From a virus: DNA of 27,540 nucleotides. Numbering within the stretch: position 1 is the first letter of the stretch; every line of letters begins with the position of its first letter. The position numbers were made by a program, and so were the translations under genes. Positions 10,336 to 27,225 of this stretch are shown piece by piece. Location of the stretch: positions 1 to 27,540 of the IMG/VR virus record IMGVR_UViG_3300048672_001472; one strand, given 5' to 3'. The notes beneath the pieces are model-generated. The model did no database searches. It saw nothing but the letters and a program-made list of their open reading frames with translations, and was not told where the DNA came from.

Positions 10336-11307
10336 ATGTCACAGTTAAACAAATCAGCACCAAAACCATCTATATCAGCTCCATCGTTTACTAGCGCAGT
10401 TGCAAAAGCTACAGGAAACAAATTGGCGGTATCCGCAAACAACAACGTTCAGTTCGCAAAAACTCCACATCATATATTGTACGAATTAGTAACATCATCC
10501 TTACTAGGGCGTAATACATTTTACAATACTGGTGACGTCTTGGTTGCTCGATTGGTAACAGCAATTGATCAATTAGTAGCAATTGATGAGTTTGATTTTA
10601 TCGCAAATGCTGCGATACACGCTCGAACTGAAATGCACATCAGATCTATGCCAATTGTGTTGGTGGTTCAATTTGCTGCTGCGCTGCGGAAACGTAATAA
10701 AACATTTCCTGCTATGCGCCGTCTGACATCGACTGTGATTAGTAGAGCAGATGAATTGACTGATATGTTATCATACGCCTTACAAGTATTTGGCGGGAAA
10801 CAACATATTCCATCTGCGATTAAGAAGGGTATCGCTGATGCGTGTAATAAATTCAATGAATATCAATACGGTAAGTACAACCGCAAAGGAAAATCTGTAA
10901 CATTTTCGGATTTGTTGCGAATTGTGCATCCAGTTGCTAATACCATTGAACAAGGAGCCTTATACGCTAATATTATTGCTGATACTGTGCCAACTCCATA
11001 TACTTGGGAAACTGAATTATCTAATCCATCCACTTCCTCTACTGGATGGTGTGAGGTTTACTCATCTGCTCCTAGACCAACCGCAACGCCAGAATTCGCT
11101 CCAAATGTTGATTTACTGGGAGGTATGGTTGTTAGTGAACCTCTGTTGTGTAAATTGCCAGGGGTAAAATACCACCCGTCGTTTATTATGAGTGTAGATG
11201 GTAGAGAGTTTCAACAAATTAGTTGGACTCATCCACCAAAAACAAAATCCCAAATATGGGAAGAATTAATTCGGTCTGGATTTGAGGGGTGGTTGGAAGT
11301 TGCGTAG
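10336..11307 (+). CDS. rsr: Ro60/TROVE protein, N-terminal part of a split gene
   Basis: HEAT-repeat half of a Ro60 (Rsr) ring protein, which binds Y RNA and misfolded RNA ends. TROVE features: FIANAAIHARTEMHIRSMP (the yaRe...lRs.P block), KKGIADACNKFNEYQYGKY, FSDLLRIVHP, and DTVPTPYTWETELS. A ~65-residue segment without TROVE similarity then precedes KTKSQIWEELIRSG, where TROVE normally continues with LPxMALLRNLRNI. Here the frame instead reads eight more residues and stops at 11307; the expected continuation is at ~12430 in the next Ro60 gene, with an endonuclease between. A tRNA-like RNA lies upstream. Both halves keep their signatures, so the protein may work as two chains. Confidence 0.85.
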   Translation: MSQLNKSAPKPSISAPSFTSAVAKATGNKLAVSANNNVQFAKTPHHILYELVTSSLLGRNTFYNTGDVLVARLVTAIDQLVAIDEFDFIANAAIHARTEMHIRSMPIVLVVQFAAALRKRNKTFPAMRRLTSTVISRADELTDMLSYALQVFGGKQHIPSAIKKGIADACNKFNEYQYGKYNRKGKSVTFSDLLRIVHPVANTIEQGALYANIIADTVPTPYTWETELSNPSTSSTGWCEVYSSAPRPTATPEFAPNVDLLGGMVVSEPLLCKLPGVKYHPSFIMSVDGREFQQISWTHPPKTKSQIWEELIRSGFEGWLEVA

Positions 11308-11368: not shown

Positions 11369-12367
11369 ATGGATGATTTAAAAGCTTGGATATTACAAAA
11401 TCTGTACAAAGACAACAAGATAATTCACGGACGGATGAAACGATGGAGCACATCATCTCCTTATTGGGTAGAAAAACACTATCCTGTATTCTTTGATAGA
11501 ATCACCAGGTCTCCTGGGAGGTTATTTAGTGAGCAGGTGTACTTAATCATTAATGATATGTCCAGCATTCCAACTTGTGGAGCTGATGGGTGTAATAACT
11601 TTGTTGATTTTAAGACTTACGATAAAGGACACTATACTTATTGTTCCACTACTTGTTGTAATCGTGATGTTGACTTACTTAAAGTAAAAATTGATAATAA
11701 ACGAGAAAGTGGTGGATTCATACGAGCCTCCCAATCTATCAGGAATACTGCGTTGTTACGGTATGGTGTTGATTGGCCTACGCGCACGTCTGATTGTAAA
11801 GAGAAGCGAATACAGACGAACTTGATAAAATTCGGTGTAGATAATCAATCTAAATTACAATTAGTAAAAGACAAGCAAGTTACTACTAATCTAATCAGGT
11901 ATGGAGTAGAACATCCACTTCAACAACAAGAATTACACGATAAAGCACTTCGGAATGGGCTGGGGCGATCAAAAGTTAAGTGGTATAATAGTGATTTGTG
12001 GTACCAAGGAATGTGGGAATTTTCGTTTTTAGTTGAGCAGTATAAAATAACAAATAATATCCGTAGGGGTCCTAGGTTATTTTATAAGAGCATATCTGGT
12101 AGTAATAAGGTATATAGCCCAGATTTTATAGTTGATGATACTCGTTGTTATGAGATTAAGTCTGGGTGGACTTGGGACAACTATGGTGCTGATAAAAAAC
12201 TAAGAGTGACTAATAAATTAAAATTGAGAGCAGCCAAGCGGCTGGGATATGTTGTGTTTTTAGTAATCGATGGGATACATCTATCCTATTCACAGTTAAT
12301 TAAATTAAGGAGTTGGGACAATGAACGTGGTAACGCAGAAATTCTTGGATACACAAGAAAATGTTAG
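11369..12367 (+). CDS. EDxHD/PD-(D/E)xK-type homing endonuclease splitting Ro60
   Basis: 332 residues. After a short helical start there is a putative zinc-binding segment (CGADGCNNF...YCSTTCC), then three copies of a DNA-binding-like repeat (LLRYGVDWP, NLIKFGVDNQ, NLIRYGVEHP, each with a following Lys-rich helix). The C-terminal nuclease-like core has YSPDFIVDD...CYEIKSGW, an acidic/E-x-K arrangement, then AAKRLGYVVFLVID, the Gly-aromatic-hydrophobic strand of Vsr-like endonucleases. It lies exactly between the two Ro60 parts, so Ro60 is its probable host gene. It has its own late-type box. Its 3' end overlaps the start of the Ro60 C-terminal frame by 47 bp. Confidence 0.78.
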   Translation: MDDLKAWILQNLYKDNKIIHGRMKRWSTSSPYWVEKHYPVFFDRITRSPGRLFSEQVYLIINDMSSIPTCGADGCNNFVDFKTYDKGHYTYCSTTCCNRDVDLLKVKIDNKRESGGFIRASQSIRNTALLRYGVDWPTRTSDCKEKRIQTNLIKFGVDNQSKLQLVKDKQVTTNLIRYGVEHPLQQQELHDKALRNGLGRSKVKWYNSDLWYQGMWEFSFLVEQYKITNNIRRGPRLFYKSISGSNKVYSPDFIVDDTRCYEIKSGWTWDNYGADKKLRVTNKLKLRAAKRLGYVVFLVIDGIHLSYSQLIKLRSWDNERGNAEILGYTRKC

Positions 12368-13196
12368 TCTTACTGATGAATACAAAGAAGAGAACGGCAA
12401 GCGATACCGAAAAGTATCGTATGGCCATCGTCTACCTTGGATGGCGCTGCTGAGAAATCTCCGAAATATTAGCCAAGCTGGAGTATCCGAAGAGGCTGAA
12501 CGCCAAGTTTATGATTATATAACAAATCCAACAGCAGTTGCCAACTCAAAGCAACTTCCTTTTGACTTGTTAGAGGCGTATAAGGCAGTTAAAGAGGTGA
12601 ACTCTACGTTCTTCGCTAAGGCTGTTTCGCAGGCAATGGATATTAGTTTATCCAACATCCCATCGTTTGGGGAGAAAATTTGGGTTATTGTGGACTTTTC
12701 TGGGTCTATGGGAAATAATGATGGGATTGTGATGTCGAATGCCACGTTACTAGCTTCGGCAATTCTAAAGAGTAACAACAACACTCGCACTGCACTAACT
12801 CTATTTGGATCGGGCGCATTAACGCTGACGGATTTCCCATCTACTGATTCGTTGGTTACTATGCAACACGCTATGCTGACTTATCGGGTCGGTGAGATTG
12901 CTGGATATACTCAGTTTGATAAAGCCTTGAATGAATATAATAGACTTGGTTTTATCCCTGATACTATTATTGTGTGTACTGATGGAGAGGTGAATCGGTT
13001 TCCATATCAAGCATTATTTGGGTTAGCAGATGGCGCAATTAAGTTGGTTATTAACATGGAAGGAGCACAATCCACTCCGTTCATTAAATCAGATGGATGG
13101 CACTCGTTATCTGGATTTTCGAGCTCTATGTTTAAGTTCATCGAAGGTATTAGAAATGAACAATCCGTAGTAGAACAATTATCCCATCCATTCTAA
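12321..13196 (+). CDS. rsr: Ro60/TROVE protein, C-terminal part with von Willebrand A domain
   Basis: Second part of the split Ro60. After a ~36-residue leader unlike TROVE, it resumes at RLPWMALLRNLRNISQAGVS, the conserved end of the TROVE ring, then continues into a vWA domain with a complete MIDAS: DFSGS (D125, S127, S129), T197 in GYTQF, and TDGE (D221). Full-length bacterial Ro60 has these modules in one chain. SD AAGGAG is 8 nt before ATG 12321, so this half is translated on its own, starting inside the endonuclease gene. The leader lacks the HN-(C/S/T) end of an intein, so there is no sign of protein splicing. It ends TAATG, coupling it to the next gene. Confidence 0.87.
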   Translation: MNVVTQKFLDTQENVSLTDEYKEENGKRYRKVSYGHRLPWMALLRNLRNISQAGVSEEAERQVYDYITNPTAVANSKQLPFDLLEAYKAVKEVNSTFFAKAVSQAMDISLSNIPSFGEKIWVIVDFSGSMGNNDGIVMSNATLLASAILKSNNNTRTALTLFGSGALTLTDFPSTDSLVTMQHAMLTYRVGEIAGYTQFDKALNEYNRLGFIPDTIIVCTDGEVNRFPYQALFGLADGAIKLVINMEGAQSTPFIKSDGWHSLSGFSSSMFKFIEGIRNEQSVVEQLSHPF

Positions 13197-13987: not shown

Positions 13988-14869
13988 ATGAGTACATTCG
14001 CGGTAAAAATAACACAAATTGTAGTACATCCTCATCCAGACGCGGACTCTTTAGAAATTGCACAGGCTGCAGATTACTTATCAGTAGTTCGTAAAGGCCA
14101 ATATCAAACTGGTGATCGAGTGGCATACATACCAGAAAATGCTATTGTTCCAACTTGGTTACTCCGCCACATAGATATGTGGGACGATGAAAAACAAAAA
14201 GGTAGATTATCTGGGTCGTTTGGGAATAAAGTAATTCCAAGACGGTTGCGCGGGGTAGTTAGTCAAGGACTTTGTGTTCAGTTATCCCCAGTCCCAACCA
14301 CCCCTAGTATCACCGATCCGCAATACGCTGATGATCAATGGATTCTCCCATTGGATAATTGCGATACTTGTATAGTGATAGACGATCAAGATGTTAGTGA
14401 ATTATTAGGCGTTAGTAAATGGGAACCACCAGTACCTGTTCATTTAGCGGGTGAGGTGTTTAATGTGGGCTCATCATACACCATAAATTTCGATGTGGAG
14501 AATATTAAGGCATATCCTAATGTGTTCATTCCTGGTGAAGAAGTTATCATGACAGAGAAAATACATGGCTGCGCATCTTTTCACACATTATTAGATACTG
14601 TGGAGTTTGGACTAATAACAATTGGGCGAGTAGTAGATGAACGATTAAAAGTTCATGTTAAGTCTATGGATATTCAAACCCACGAAATTCAGTTTAATGA
14701 AGTGTTGGGTTGGTCATCCCAACCCAACATCGATAATTGGTATGAATTGGAAACAGAGGATGGTACTATAATGAAATTGACGGGTAACCATCCGGTGTGG
14801 CTTCCTGACATCAACGCATATCGCAGAGTTGATGAATTAGTTGGTAATGAATCCATCACCATGGACTGA
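13988..14869 (+). CDS. Rnl5-like RNA ligase N-terminal part fused to an N-terminal split intein
   Basis: Residues 1-194 are the N-terminal part of an Rnl5 (Deinococcus DraRnl)-like RNA ligase: an OB-type domain (FAVKITQIVVHPHPDADSLE, VVRKGQYQTGDRVAYIPE) and the start of the adenylyltransferase domain up to the nucleotidylation motif EKIHG, with Lys191 the expected AMP-accepting residue. Residue 195 (Cys, codon 14570-14572) begins an intein: block A CASFHTLL and block B GTIMKLTGNHPVW with the TxxH-type histidine. The frame stops 99 residues into the intein. The rest of intein and ligase is encoded from 15742. SD AGGA precedes ATG 13988. Protein trans-splicing should rebuild a ~400-residue ligase. 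Confidence 0.9.
   Translation: MSTFAVKITQIVVHPHPDADSLEIAQAADYLSVVRKGQYQTGDRVAYIPENAIVPTWLLRHIDMWDDEKQKGRLSGSFGNKVIPRRLRGVVSQGLCVQLSPVPTTPSITDPQYADDQWILPLDNCDTCIVIDDQDVSELLGVSKWEPPVPVHLAGEVFNVGSSYTINFDVENIKAYPNVFIPGEEVIMTEKIHGCASFHTLLDTVEFGLITIGRVVDERLKVHVKSMDIQTHEIQFNEVLGWSSQPNIDNWYELETEDGTIMKLTGNHPVWLPDINAYRRVDELVGNESITMD
14570..14866 (+). other. N-terminal split-intein half (99 aa)
   Basis: Starts with Cys1 directly after the KIHG nucleotidylation motif and holds splicing blocks A and B (TGNHPVW). There is no endonuclease or linker domain and the chain ends ~15 residues after block B, a normal length for the N half of a naturally split intein. Confidence 0.9.
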
Positions 14870-14893
14870 AAAAGTTCACTGAACTTTTTCAGT
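14865..14893 (+). terminator. Perfect 13-bp hairpin at the end of the intein N half gene
   Basis: ACTGAAAAAGTTC (14865-14877), loop ACT, and its exact complement (14881-14893). The TGA stop lies in the left arm. There is no downstream T tract outside the stem, so it could be a terminator, an RNA-stability element, or a cassette boundary. Confidence 0.6.
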
Positions 14894-14921
14894 ATAAATA
14901 CTCTCTTTATAAAGAGAGTAT
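14893..14921 (+). promoter_or_regulatory. Late-type promoter overlapping a 24-bp palindrome that covers the endonuclease SD
   Basis: TATAAATAC at 14893-14901 overlaps the left arm of a perfect 24-bp palindrome (14898-14921). The right arm contains GAGAG, the likely SD for ATG 14925. Read-through RNA would form the hairpin and hide the SD. RNA started ~6 nt after the box would lose most of the left arm. The same plan is established for T4 intron endonuclease genes. Confidence 0.65.
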
Positions 14922-14924
14922 CAT

Positions 14925-15770
14925 ATGGATATTTGTCCGCATTGTAACAACGAAGTAAAAAAATTATCAAGTCATTTAAAATATTGTTCCAGCTACAAAG
15001 AGTGGTATTCGGTTAATATCACCAAGGATATGTTATTGTTGGAGTATGTGAATGGCGGGAAGTCCGCAAATGAAATATCCAAGCAATTAGGCCTACCTTC
15101 TAGCACCACTATAAACAGAGCATTAACCAAGTTCGGGATTGCTAAACGCGGGATATCCGAATCCAGAAAAATGGATAGATGTAGAGACCAGTCAGAGGCT
15201 ACTAATCTATCTAGGTATGGCGTGAGGCATAATATGTGTAATGACCACCCCAGTAGAATAGCGTGGCAACTAAGATTGTTTAGTGAAGAAGGGATTACCA
15301 ACGTATTCCAGCGAGAGTCAGTAAAGCAAAAAATCGCCAATGCTATTAGGAACTCCACTGGTGGTGTAAATGGGAGTAGAATATCAAGTATTCATAGATT
15401 GGTATACAACACCCTACTGTCGTATGGTATATCGGTAATTAATGAATATAATATCCCAAATACCAAATACTGGTATGATATATTGGTAGTCGGTACCAAC
15501 AAAATAATAGAGGTTAATGGTGATTTCTATCACGCAAATCCCATTAAGTATGTATCTACTGATATCCTACATTTTCGTCGTGATGATGCGCATTTGGCAT
15601 CTGATTTGTGGAATAAAGACAAAGTCAAGAATGGTACAGCTAAACAATTGGGATTTGATGTGTTGGTGGTGTGGGAGTGTGACATCCGTACTCAATTTGA
15701 GTCAACTATCGATACCATTTTAAATTTTATAGGAGAGGTAAATGAAGATAAGCAAGTTGAAGTCGGTTAG
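14925..15770 (+). CDS. EDxHD (Vsr-like) homing endonuclease between split-intein halves
   Basis: 281 residues. N-terminal zinc-finger-like CPHCNNEVKKLSSHLKYC; a helix-turn-helix (YVNGGKSANEISKQLGLPSS); a linker with NLSRYGVRHN as in the other EDxHD genes here; and a Vsr-type nuclease core YDILVVGTNKIIEVNGDFYH, then LWNKDKVKNGTAKQLGFDVL ending VVWECD. The order Asp, Glu, (G)D-x-x-H, then Lys and W-E is that of the endonucleases described in fractured, split-intein genes (Dassa et al. 2009) and of I-Bth0305I. It sits exactly between the two halves of the ligase intein, replacing the endonuclease domain a normal intein would carry. Its 3' end overlaps the ligase C-part start by 29 bp. Confidence 0.88.
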   Translation: MDICPHCNNEVKKLSSHLKYCSSYKEWYSVNITKDMLLLEYVNGGKSANEISKQLGLPSSTTINRALTKFGIAKRGISESRKMDRCRDQSEATNLSRYGVRHNMCNDHPSRIAWQLRLFSEEGITNVFQRESVKQKIANAIRNSTGGVNGSRISSIHRLVYNTLLSYGISVINEYNIPNTKYWYDILVVGTNKIIEVNGDFYHANPIKYVSTDILHFRRDDAHLASDLWNKDKVKNGTAKQLGFDVLVVWECDIRTQFESTIDTILNFIGEVNEDKQVEVG

Positions 15771-15855
15771 AAAAATAGACCACGATTCTAATAGATACGA
15801 TATAGAAGTAGCCAACACATCCAACTTTTTTGCTGATGGGGTGTTGGTACATAAT
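15742..15855 (+). other. C-terminal split-intein half (38 aa)
   Basis: A 38-residue segment beginning at the start codon and ending HN immediately before Ser+1 of the ligase. The length is typical for C halves of natural split inteins, which supports efficient trans-splicing with 14570-14866. Confidence 0.9.
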
Positions 15856-16476
15856 TCGTTTTGTGCCATGAGTTACATTCCTGGTCTTAACCACACCGAA
15901 GCGTTTGATGGTAATTTTATTGTGTATTCCAAAGGGTTGGGAGCGCAAGGGTTAGTATTCAAAGACAATGAGAAAAACGCCAATAATGCGTATGTTAAAA
16001 TGTTTAAGCAGTATAAACAAAACATACTCGATGTTCATGATGCATTTGGGTTGGATGATACTACCCAAATTACTATTTTGGGTGAAGTATTTGGTCCTGT
16101 TCAGGATTTGAAGTACTCATTTTCTGATCTTCAGTTTAGAGTATTTGATGTATACATCGGACGTCCTCGGTATTCAGATGAATTAAGTTGGTTTGTGTCA
16201 AAAGGAACAACACTCGCTGTATGTAAGTCATTTGGTATTCCCACAGTGCCATTGTTGTACCAAGGTCCATTTTCAGCAGAGATGCTCGAATTATATACGA
16301 ATGGTGTTGAACAAGTATCGGGAACAGAAGCTCACATCCGTGAAGGTGTTGTAGTTAGTCCGATAGAAGAACGTCAATGCAACACTCATCGAAATAATCT
16401 AGGTAGAGTGTTGTTGAAGTCTGTATCTAATGATTATTTGTTGAGAAAGTCGTCAACAGCAACTGAATATAACTAA
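15742..16476 (+). CDS. C-terminal split intein fused to RNA ligase C-terminal part
   Basis: Residues 1-38 are the C-terminal intein half: SNRYDIEVANTSNFFADGVL then VHN, i.e. blocks F and G ending in His-Asn. The next residue, Ser39, is the +1 extein residue. From there the chain continues the ligase with SFCAMSY (the residues normally following KxHG or KxDG in Rnl5/Rnl2-type enzymes), FIVYSKGLGAQGLVF (motif III region), ILGEVFGPVQDL (motif IIIa/IV region), and HIREGVVVSP...RVLLKSVSNDYL (motifs IV-V; EGVV and LLKS are typical). SD AGGAGAGG sits just before ATG 15742. Mature C-extein is 206 residues. Confidence 0.92.
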   Translation: MKISKLKSVRKIDHDSNRYDIEVANTSNFFADGVLVHNSFCAMSYIPGLNHTEAFDGNFIVYSKGLGAQGLVFKDNEKNANNAYVKMFKQYKQNILDVHDAFGLDDTTQITILGEVFGPVQDLKYSFSDLQFRVFDVYIGRPRYSDELSWFVSKGTTLAVCKSFGIPTVPLLYQGPFSAEMLELYTNGVEQVSGTEAHIREGVVVSPIEERQCNTHRNNLGRVLLKSVSNDYLLRKSSTATEYN

Positions 16477-16653: not shown

Positions 16654-16666
16654 GTATCCCTACCCA

Positions 16667-16722
16667 TTGATTTAACACATTAATCCCTGTATAATTTTAC
16701 TTAATTTACGGGGATTAATGTG
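16667..16722 (+). promoter_or_regulatory. Sigma70-like promoter inside a hairpin that masks the next start codon
   Basis: TTGATT (16667-16672), 17 bp, TATAAT (16690-16695). Arms CACATTAATCCC (16676-16687) and GGGATTAATGTG (16711-16722) pair perfectly over 12 bp; the right arm holds the GGG SD and the GTG start of the endonuclease gene. RNA started at ~16702 lacks the left arm, so only this promoter would yield an open start site. Confidence 0.7.
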
Positions 16723-26215: not shown

Positions 26216-26230
26216 TTTAATATCCTATTA

Positions 26231-26280
26231 TTGATTTAACCAATTAATCCCTGTATAATTTTAATTAATTTATAGGGATT
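26231..26280 (+). promoter_or_regulatory. Sigma70-like promoter inside a hairpin that masks the endonuclease SD
   Basis: TTGATT (26231-26236), 17 bp, TATAAT (26254-26259). AATCCCT (26246-26252) pairs with AGGGATT (26274-26280), extended by a G-T pair and two more pairs inside. The right arm contains the SD AGGGA of ATG 26287 and is followed by T's, so read-through RNA could also terminate. It is nearly the same sequence as the element at 16667-16722. Confidence 0.7.
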
Positions 26281-26286
26281 TTTTTT

Positions 26287-27225
26287 ATGTCAATACCACT
26301 AACCACCTCCAGATTCGTGGAGAAGGCAGTTGCGGTGCATGGAGATAAATATGATTATAGTGAAACTGAATATGTAAATCGCAATACCGTGGTATTTGTA
26401 CTATGTCCAACTCATGGAGGGTTTTACCAGCGCCCAAGTGTCCATTTATTGGGACATGGTTGTCAACTATGTAGAAAAGATAAACAGTCACGTGAAACTA
26501 CTAAATTGCAGCAAACTTTTATATCAGATGCCATACGGACTCATGGATTGTTGTATGATTATTCGGACGTAGATTATACTGGAACTCATAGCAAGATTAC
26601 CATTATATGCAAAGCTCATGGGCAATTTGCCCAGCAGCCTTACGCTCACTTGGGTGGGGCTGGTTGTCCCGCGTGCAAACCCAATCATCAATCAACAGCA
26701 CAGCAGAACTTCGTAGATAAAGCGAGGATGGTACACAACTATAAGTACAAATACGATTCAGTAAAGTACAAAAATAACCGTACAAAAGTTCTCATACATT
26801 GCCCATCGCATGGCTCATTTGCTCAATCCCCAGCAAGTCACCTACGAGGGTCTGGATGTCCCACTTGTGCGAAGTCTAATATATCAAGTGCCTCATCAGA
26901 TTGGTTAAATTCGGTAGCTACATCTACTGGGTGTTGGATACAACACGGAGGGAATGTAGGAGAATTTAGAATCCCTGGAACTAAATATAAAGCAGATGGA
27001 TATTGCAAAGAAACTAATACCATTTTTGAATTCCACGGCGATAAATGGCATGGGAATCTTGATATATTACCTAATGATGCAAAATGTCATCCAAAAGATA
27101 GTAATATTACTGCTATAGAGTTATATCAGAAAACAAAAGCCAGAGAACAAGAAATAGTAAAACTGGGATATAATTTAGTGGTTATGTGGGAGCATGATTG
27201 GAAAATGTTAAGCAAAACTAAATGA
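26287..27225 (+). CDS. EDxHD (Vsr-like) homing endonuclease with three zinc-ribbon repeats
   Basis: 312 residues. Three tandem modules of the type HGDKYDYSETEY...VFVLCPTHGGFYQRP...GHGCQLC (residues ~18-65, ~79-125, ~141-190), each with Cys-x-x-His and Cys-x-x-Cys, i.e. likely zinc binding. The C-terminal nuclease core is YKADGYCKETNTIFEFHGDK, then WHGN and REQEIVKLGYNLVVMWEHDW, closely matching the endonuclease at 16720-17841. The start is ATG 26287, 8 nt after the SD. Host gene not obvious; it separates the Nudix gene from an acidic virion-like gene. Confidence 0.85.
   Translation: MSIPLTTSRFVEKAVAVHGDKYDYSETEYVNRNTVVFVLCPTHGGFYQRPSVHLLGHGCQLCRKDKQSRETTKLQQTFISDAIRTHGLLYDYSDVDYTGTHSKITIICKAHGQFAQQPYAHLGGAGCPACKPNHQSTAQQNFVDKARMVHNYKYKYDSVKYKNNRTKVLIHCPSHGSFAQSPASHLRGSGCPTCAKSNISSASSDWLNSVATSTGCWIQHGGNVGEFRIPGTKYKADGYCKETNTIFEFHGDKWHGNLDILPNDAKCHPKDSNITAIELYQKTKAREQEIVKLGYNLVVMWEHDWKMLSKTK

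Follow-up and report, generated by a model that had tools for sequence, protein, structure and literature searches.

The question raised by the virus fragment analysed here (IMG/VR record IMGVR_UViG_3300048672_001472; 27,540 bases, hereafter the window) is how a phage could obtain a working RNA ligase from a gene that is cut directly behind its catalytic lysine motif, with an endonuclease gene lying between the two pieces. We found that the locus consists of three plus-strand genes, A (13988-14869), B (14925-15770) and C (15742-16476), and that all three reading frames are open. The product of gene A (293 amino acids, aa) comprises ligase residues 1-194 followed by a 99-aa intein N-half, that of gene B is a complete 281-aa nuclease, and that of gene C (244 aa) is a 38-aa intein C-half followed by the final 206 ligase residues. 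Very probably, this is a fractured RNA ligase gene that carries a two-part mobile element, a split class 1 intein plus a free-standing EDxHD endonuclease, which would restore the ligase by trans-splicing, spread by homing and be expressed late. The features of the locus are as follows.

13988-14569, plus strand: ligase N-extein, residues 1-194, with the OB domain and the start of the nucleotidyltransferase domain (PF21189 OB-fold, E 2e-7; TIGR02306 positions 9-172).
14558-14569, plus strand: motif I, K191-I-H-G, with the intein directly after it (K191 and G194 invariant in alignment A2).
14570-14866, plus strand: intein N-half, 99 aa, from Cys1 through TGNH (14780-14791), followed by a stop codon (14867-14869).
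14865-14893, plus strand: perfect 14-nt inverted repeat forming a terminator-like hairpin (arms 100% complementary, 1 nt apart).
14893-14900, plus strand: T4-type late promoter consensus TATAAATA, at -32 from the endonuclease ATG.
14898-14921, plus strand: perfect palindrome of 24 nt, with the endonuclease ribosome site AAAGAGAG (14911-14918) in its 3' arm.
14925-15770, plus strand: free-standing EDxHD homing endonuclease, 281 aa (Foldseek; alignments A4 and A7).
15510-15563, plus strand: catalytic motif EVNGDFYHANPIKYVSTD (E196, D200, H203, D213; alignment A5).
15732-15738, plus strand: ribosome site GGAGAGG of the C-half gene, read from the sequence, within the endonuclease gene.
15742-15855, plus strand: intein C-half, 38 aa, ending in VLVHN (TIGR01443, E 3.8e-7; Intein_splicing, 1.4e-5).
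15856-16476, plus strand: ligase C-extein, 206 aa, from Ser+1 (PF09414, E 9e-16; TIGR02306 positions 179-341).

The inverted repeat overlaps the stop codon of the N-half gene, and the C-half gene shares 29 nt with the end of the endonuclease gene. Since the identical layout and site recur in independent metagenomes (loci L014 and L005), the arrangement is neither chance nor an assembly error.

The two ligase pieces match consecutive parts of one family profile, TIGR02306 (RNA ligase DRB0094, Rnl5 type), and when joined they match positions 9-341 with 203.5 bits (cut-off 151). Using tblastn, the joined 400 residues align in one piece and without a gap at the junction with the intact ligase of the huge phage LR756508 (40.5% identity, residues 1-398) and with intact ligases of Brevundimonas and Caulobacter phages (33-37%). 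The window reads TEKIHG/SFCAM (the slash marks the cut) where intact homologues read MEKLHGTFCCI or TEKLHGTFCRM; zero ligase residues are lost, and the host gene is back in frame once the intein is removed. E190, K191, G194, E271, E357 and K382 are invariant in alignment A2, so that the nucleotidyltransferase motif residues (motif I lysine K191, E271, E357 and K382) are all present, and the C-extein carries the motifs GEVFG, FRVFDVY, REGVVV and LLKS. The nearest solved relative is NgrRnl. By its sequence, the spliced form would be an Rnl5/DRB0094-type ATP-dependent RNA ligase of 400 aa.

The two intein halves total 137 residues and carry Cys1, the TGNH block, YDIEVANTSNFFADG, VLVHN and Ser+1. 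Thus the marks of a class 1 intein, namely Cys1, a TxxH block (block B TGNHPVW, with T71 and H74 of the intein), a terminal His-Asn and Cys, Ser or Thr at +1, are in place. The Intein_splicing and intein_Nterm matches of the N-half are weak, and the splicing residues are invariant among related inteins, of which those of L005 and L014 are 50-54% identical to that of the window. Npu DnaE and NrdJ-1 are the nearest solved structures by sequence; NrdJ-1 is also the nearest characterised intein (34% identity over 140 aa) in a comparison with NrdJ-1, gp41-1 and IMPDH-1. The N-half is acidic (net charge -10), and the C-half is slightly basic (+1).

The nuclease of gene B has an N-terminal C-x2-C..H..C finger, a helical middle and a Vsr-like nuclease domain with the EDxHD-group motifs EVNGDFYH..D and WECD. 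In alignment A5, E196, H203 and D213 are invariant and D200 is kept in 90% or more of the sequences. Its AlphaFold model (predicted local distance difference test, pLDDT, 86) matched the Vsr endonuclease (1cw0) and the catalytic domain of I-Bth0305I (3r3p) in Foldseek, each with probability 1.00 and the latter with a TM score of 0.78 on the target. The model thus supports an EDxHD homing-type endonuclease with the Vsr/I-Bth0305I fold and intact catalytic residues.

The anatomy described so far agrees with the original prediction, which had been made from the sequence alone. An Rnl5-like ligase interrupted right after KIHG by a Cys-starting half with TGNHPVW and a stop, an EDxHD endonuclease gene between the halves, and a 38-aa C-half ending in VHN-Ser are all found in the window, the intein profiles matching at the right places. 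Likewise, its assignment to the 'fractured gene' class holds, because the host reading frame ends at its own stop after the N-half, a complete endonuclease gene of the Vsr/EDxHD fold follows, and a later reading frame begins with the C-half. The check that it proposed, continuity of the ligase at G194/S39, was passed, as intact homologues align across the junction with no residue missing.

The endonuclease gene appears to have a control region of its own. TATAAATA occurs 11 times in the window against 4.15 expected, a count reached by none of 100 shuffles; 6 of the 11 sites lie 32-38 bases upstream of a gene start (p 1e-8), and 4 of the 11 lie at this distance from homing-type endonuclease genes (p 7e-8). 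Because these enriched sites cluster before gene starts, endonuclease genes among them, TATAAATA is very likely the late promoter of the phage. The prediction that the endonuclease has its own promoter therefore stands at the level of a late consensus at -32. A scan for sigma-70 promoters and terminators gave nothing above chance in this stretch. The 24-nt palindrome folds with -11.4 kcal/mol (equalled by 2 of 200 shuffles), and the 58-nt endonuclease leader as a whole has a folding z of -4.0. At L014 an unrelated hairpin around CATAAATA occupies the equivalent position (z -6.5). Endonuclease leaders from 14 loci form more stable folds than 112 control leaders (mean z -2.4 versus -0.2, p 2.8e-5; 8e-5 without the window), a p value that is generous since several of the 14 loci are related.

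The late consensus, the hairpin over the ribosome site, and a promoter placed so that late RNA would lack the 5' arm together match I-TevI-type control at the sequence level. In read-through RNA the hairpin would mask the ribosome site, and the endonuclease gene is for this reason predicted to be silent there. Judging from T4 spacing, a late transcript from TATAAATA would start within the 5' arm and leave the ribosome site exposed, so that the endonuclease would be translated late, as in the I-TevI/SegB/MobE scheme. As the hairpins and the promoter precede the C-half gene, full ligase may also form mainly late.

Is the window a single case? Three ligase inteins, used as query against IMG/VR without any ligase sequence, yielded 28 loci, 27 of which are fractured RNA ligases; because the search was seeded with ligase inteins, the frequency of other hosts cannot be read off from it. 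Hosts of the window type (PF21189 OB domain plus PF09414) are L005, L014, L032 and L033. The T4 Rnl1 type is confirmed by PF09511 at L006, L027, L035 and L036 and assigned by sequence likeness to the remainder of L016-L031 and L037-L040. In a wider search, ATP-dependent DNA ligases with PF01068 were found at L054, L058, L062 and L067, and L055, L059 and L061 are DNA ligases by the shared motif KLDG/CR. These DNA ligases, which lie on viral contigs, are cut at motif I (KLDG/CR or KIDG/CR, in L067 ahead of the lysine), and an endonuclease gene was detected in all but L067. A first scan of bacterial and archaeal genomes with a three-sequence intein query returned nothing; a nine-sequence intein query gave three RNA ligase cases in metagenome bins (L127-L129), which probably derive from phage. 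Counting the window, the insertion lies directly after motif I KxxG in 35 of 39 ligase records. At the other four records it lies upstream (L033 and L034), immediately ahead of the lysine (L067) or two residues further on (L128). Inteins are known to favour conserved positions in active sites (PMC3359363).

Some further split genes came to light beside these. At L064, L075, L080, L087 and L117, a split intein cuts directly after the lysine of K/TDGQ in a further set of proteins; the N-terminal region is nucleotidyltransferase-like in L075 and L117, and L064 has no Pfam match. Possibly, these proteins form an undescribed ligase-like family. L047 (LR756500, 161847-169047) is a huge-phage DNA topoisomerase/gyrase-like gene cut by split inteins, with endonuclease-like genes, and in Salmonella phage S16 (L048) and Proteus phage PM2 (L049) a split intein breaks the UvsW helicase gene and a 'hypothetical' reading frame lies between its halves, the annotation giving only helicase parts and a hypothetical protein. 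L013 (LR756501), an endonuclease relative, was dropped, as intein halves were not seen there.

In a tree of 35 inteins, 21 of them from ligases, all 21 ligase inteins, from RNA and DNA ligases alike, lie on one side of a 98/98 branch, and the inteins of ribonucleotide reductase, helicases and the K/TDG proteins lie on the other. The L067 intein, although from a DNA ligase, falls among those of RNA ligases, which implies at least one change of host kind. Inteins of Rnl5 and Rnl1 hosts share a mean identity of 49%, equal to the value within Rnl5 hosts, whereas the Rnl5 and Rnl1 ligases themselves are 16% identical. Transfer across ligase types via the shared motif would best explain these sequence relationships; the alternative is an ancient shared insertion followed by many losses. 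We regard it as about evenly balanced whether a single split-intein/EDxHD lineage specialised on motif I KxxG has moved among Rnl5, Rnl1 and DNA ligases and has an endonuclease whose timing is set by a late promoter and hairpin of the I-TevI kind. In such a history, moves between very different ligases would have been possible because the catalytic KxxG motif is common to them.

The states of the endonuclease across this lineage are informative. It is intact and in the sense direction in the window, L005, L016, L025-27, L029, L030, L035 and others. In L014 the motif Asp is changed to Asn (EVNGNLWH), eroded copies have lost the catalytic His (to Arg in L017/18, to Tyr in L019-24), and the gene is frame-shifted in L006 and L028, reversed onto the strand opposite to the fractured ligase in L036-L039, and absent from L031, L032 and L127. 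Both intein halves persist through all these states. This fits homing followed by endonuclease decay, during which the intein would be retained because the ligase needs splicing.

In the favoured scenario, ligase 1-194 with the N-half and the C-half with ligase 195-400 would associate by way of their intein parts. Trans-splicing to a seamless 400-aa ligase would then be carried out by Cys1, the TxxH block, the penultimate His, the terminal Asn and Ser+1. As the cut adjoins the nucleotidyl lysine, neither ligase half is expected to work alone, and the phage would therefore have to keep the intein active. In co-infecting phages, the endonuclease would cut the ligase motif where it is uninterrupted, and the entire intein-endonuclease-intein segment would be copied into the break during its repair. 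Some observations weigh against this scenario. The structure model of the N-half precursor is poor (pLDDT 55) and was left out of the evidence. The hairpin is weak or absent at the related loci L026, L027, L029 and L033. Unlike for I-TevI, no operator-like repeat of the homing site was found in the leader, the best 20-mer matching at 13 of 20 positions, as 44-46 of 100 shuffles also do. Megablast of 5 kb detected no near-identical phage relatives, and no close phage with an empty allele was found, the nearest intact ligase being 40% identical; homing at this site is therefore not directly visible.

Could the pieces never splice at all? They might instead form a non-covalent genes-in-pieces enzyme in which the intein halves are a docking pair, as reported for Aeh1 nrdA after mobE insertion. 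Genes-in-pieces may exist in this phage, since a nearby TROVE gene is split by an endonuclease gene and no intein was recognised there. However, every catalytic splicing residue is retained in the window and also in relatives with as little as about 35% identity, which a mere dock would not preserve, and the intein tails would remain in the active site. We thus regard this reading as very improbable. We think it slightly less probable still that the insertion inactivated the ligase and its pieces are decaying: eroded endonucleases in some relatives might suggest such decay, but the three frames are open, both pieces keep the invariant residues of the ligase motifs, and in relatives it is the endonuclease that decays while the ligase and the intein halves remain intact.

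A less remote, albeit unlikely, reading is that the intein was split already and that the endonuclease hitch-hikes independently in its gap, without driving the spread of the intein. The loci where it is reversed (L036-L039) or absent and the intein is still split would accord with this. However, over 12 loci the distances between endonucleases closely follow those between inteins (Mantel r 0.94, against 0.85 for ligase and intein), so that the two mostly travel together, and the same kind of endonuclease lies between the halves of split-intein polB genes. We therefore favour the fractured ligase with a two-part mobile element over these readings.

The class to which the locus belongs is already known. 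Dassa et al. reportedly described such 'fractured genes' in 2009, with split intein halves on two host-gene pieces and a free-standing Vsr-like (EDxHD) endonuclease between them, the hosts being replication and nucleotide-metabolism genes (gp41, NrdA/NrdJ, IMPDH and others). The window follows the same plan, here in an ATP-dependent RNA ligase broken at the catalytic lysine motif. The split-intein PolB genes of Tenacibaculum phage PTm1 and Aeromonas phage Aes123, with an endonuclease annotated by the depositors as VSR, share the gene order; their endonucleases are 25-27% identical to that of the window, and their inteins, in a PolB host, belong to a different branch and have no Cys at the aligned first position. 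NrdJ-1 (PDB 8ubs) has the same split point as the window intein, whereas its host is ribonucleotide reductase and it falls outside the ligase intein group (98/98). I-Bth0305I (PDB 3r3p), described among group I intron endonucleases (PMC3943268), has the catalytic fold and the E-D-H-D residues in common with gene B at 17% sequence identity.

As for control, a late promoter beside a hairpin that masks the endonuclease ribosome site in read-through RNA is known from I-TevI, I-TevII, I-TevIII, SegB and Aeh1 MobE (PMC2988022). The window leader shares this promoter and hairpin anatomy; those systems comprise intron-borne or intergenic GIY-YIG and HNH enzymes, whereas here an EDxHD enzyme lies between split-intein halves. 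The literature search brought up no split intein in an ATP-dependent ligase, the host list of Dassa et al. 2009 being outside that coverage; the mentions in PMC3322345, PMC11208441 and PMC5259590 are incidental. Thus, what appears to be new is the ATP-dependent ligase host, although its priority is not certain, together with the fixed nucleotidyl-lysine site across RNA and DNA ligases used by one lineage and the I-TevI-like control between the halves. The original prediction had the parts and the class, and missed the ligase-specialised intein lineage and the ribosome-site hairpin. Its 'efficient' intein stays a suggestion, as short halves do not predict speed.

In its 27.5 kb, the window contains eight homing-type endonuclease genes. 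The TROVE (Ro60-like) gene near the ligase is in two pieces, 10336-11307 and 12321-13196 (profile 21-189, then 301-371 plus a vWA domain), around an endonuclease gene (11369-12367; DUF7487, EDxHD-like). No intein was recognised at this gene, which is perhaps a case of genes-in-pieces. Ro60-like proteins, like RNA ligases, are connected with RNA repair in cellular bacteria; by analogy, the TROVE protein and the ligase may belong to one phage RNA-repair module. Searches of the window for tRNAs and Rfam families gave no matches. Four GIY-YIG endonuclease genes lie at 556, 4619, 22209 and 24827, two of which (22991-, 25642-) have TATAAATA at -36 and -38. In addition, the leaders at 16660-16720 and 26229-26287, each carrying TTGATT..TATAAT and, immediately ahead of the start, a hairpin that closes on GGGATT, are nearly identical and precede endonuclease genes at 16720 (DUF7487/DUF723) and 26287 (DUF723/DUF4379). 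From their likeness, they appear to be a shared mobile control leader. The domain make-up of these two endonucleases resembles the CapR/DUF4379/DUF723 plus Vsr-like group (PMC12350094).

In summary, the window offers a naturally occurring split intein placed at an RNA ligase's catalytic lysine, together with a family of some 20 distinct relatives. These inteins add candidates for orthogonal tools in protein trans-splicing, and a ligase whose activity depends on the splicing of its two halves could serve as a simple splicing reporter. Fractured genes and I-TevI-style late control of an endonuclease, two classic themes in the mobile DNA of phages, come together at this locus. It may be of use for understanding how a host gene is kept dependent on a selfish element, and how such an element passes between RNA and DNA ligases.

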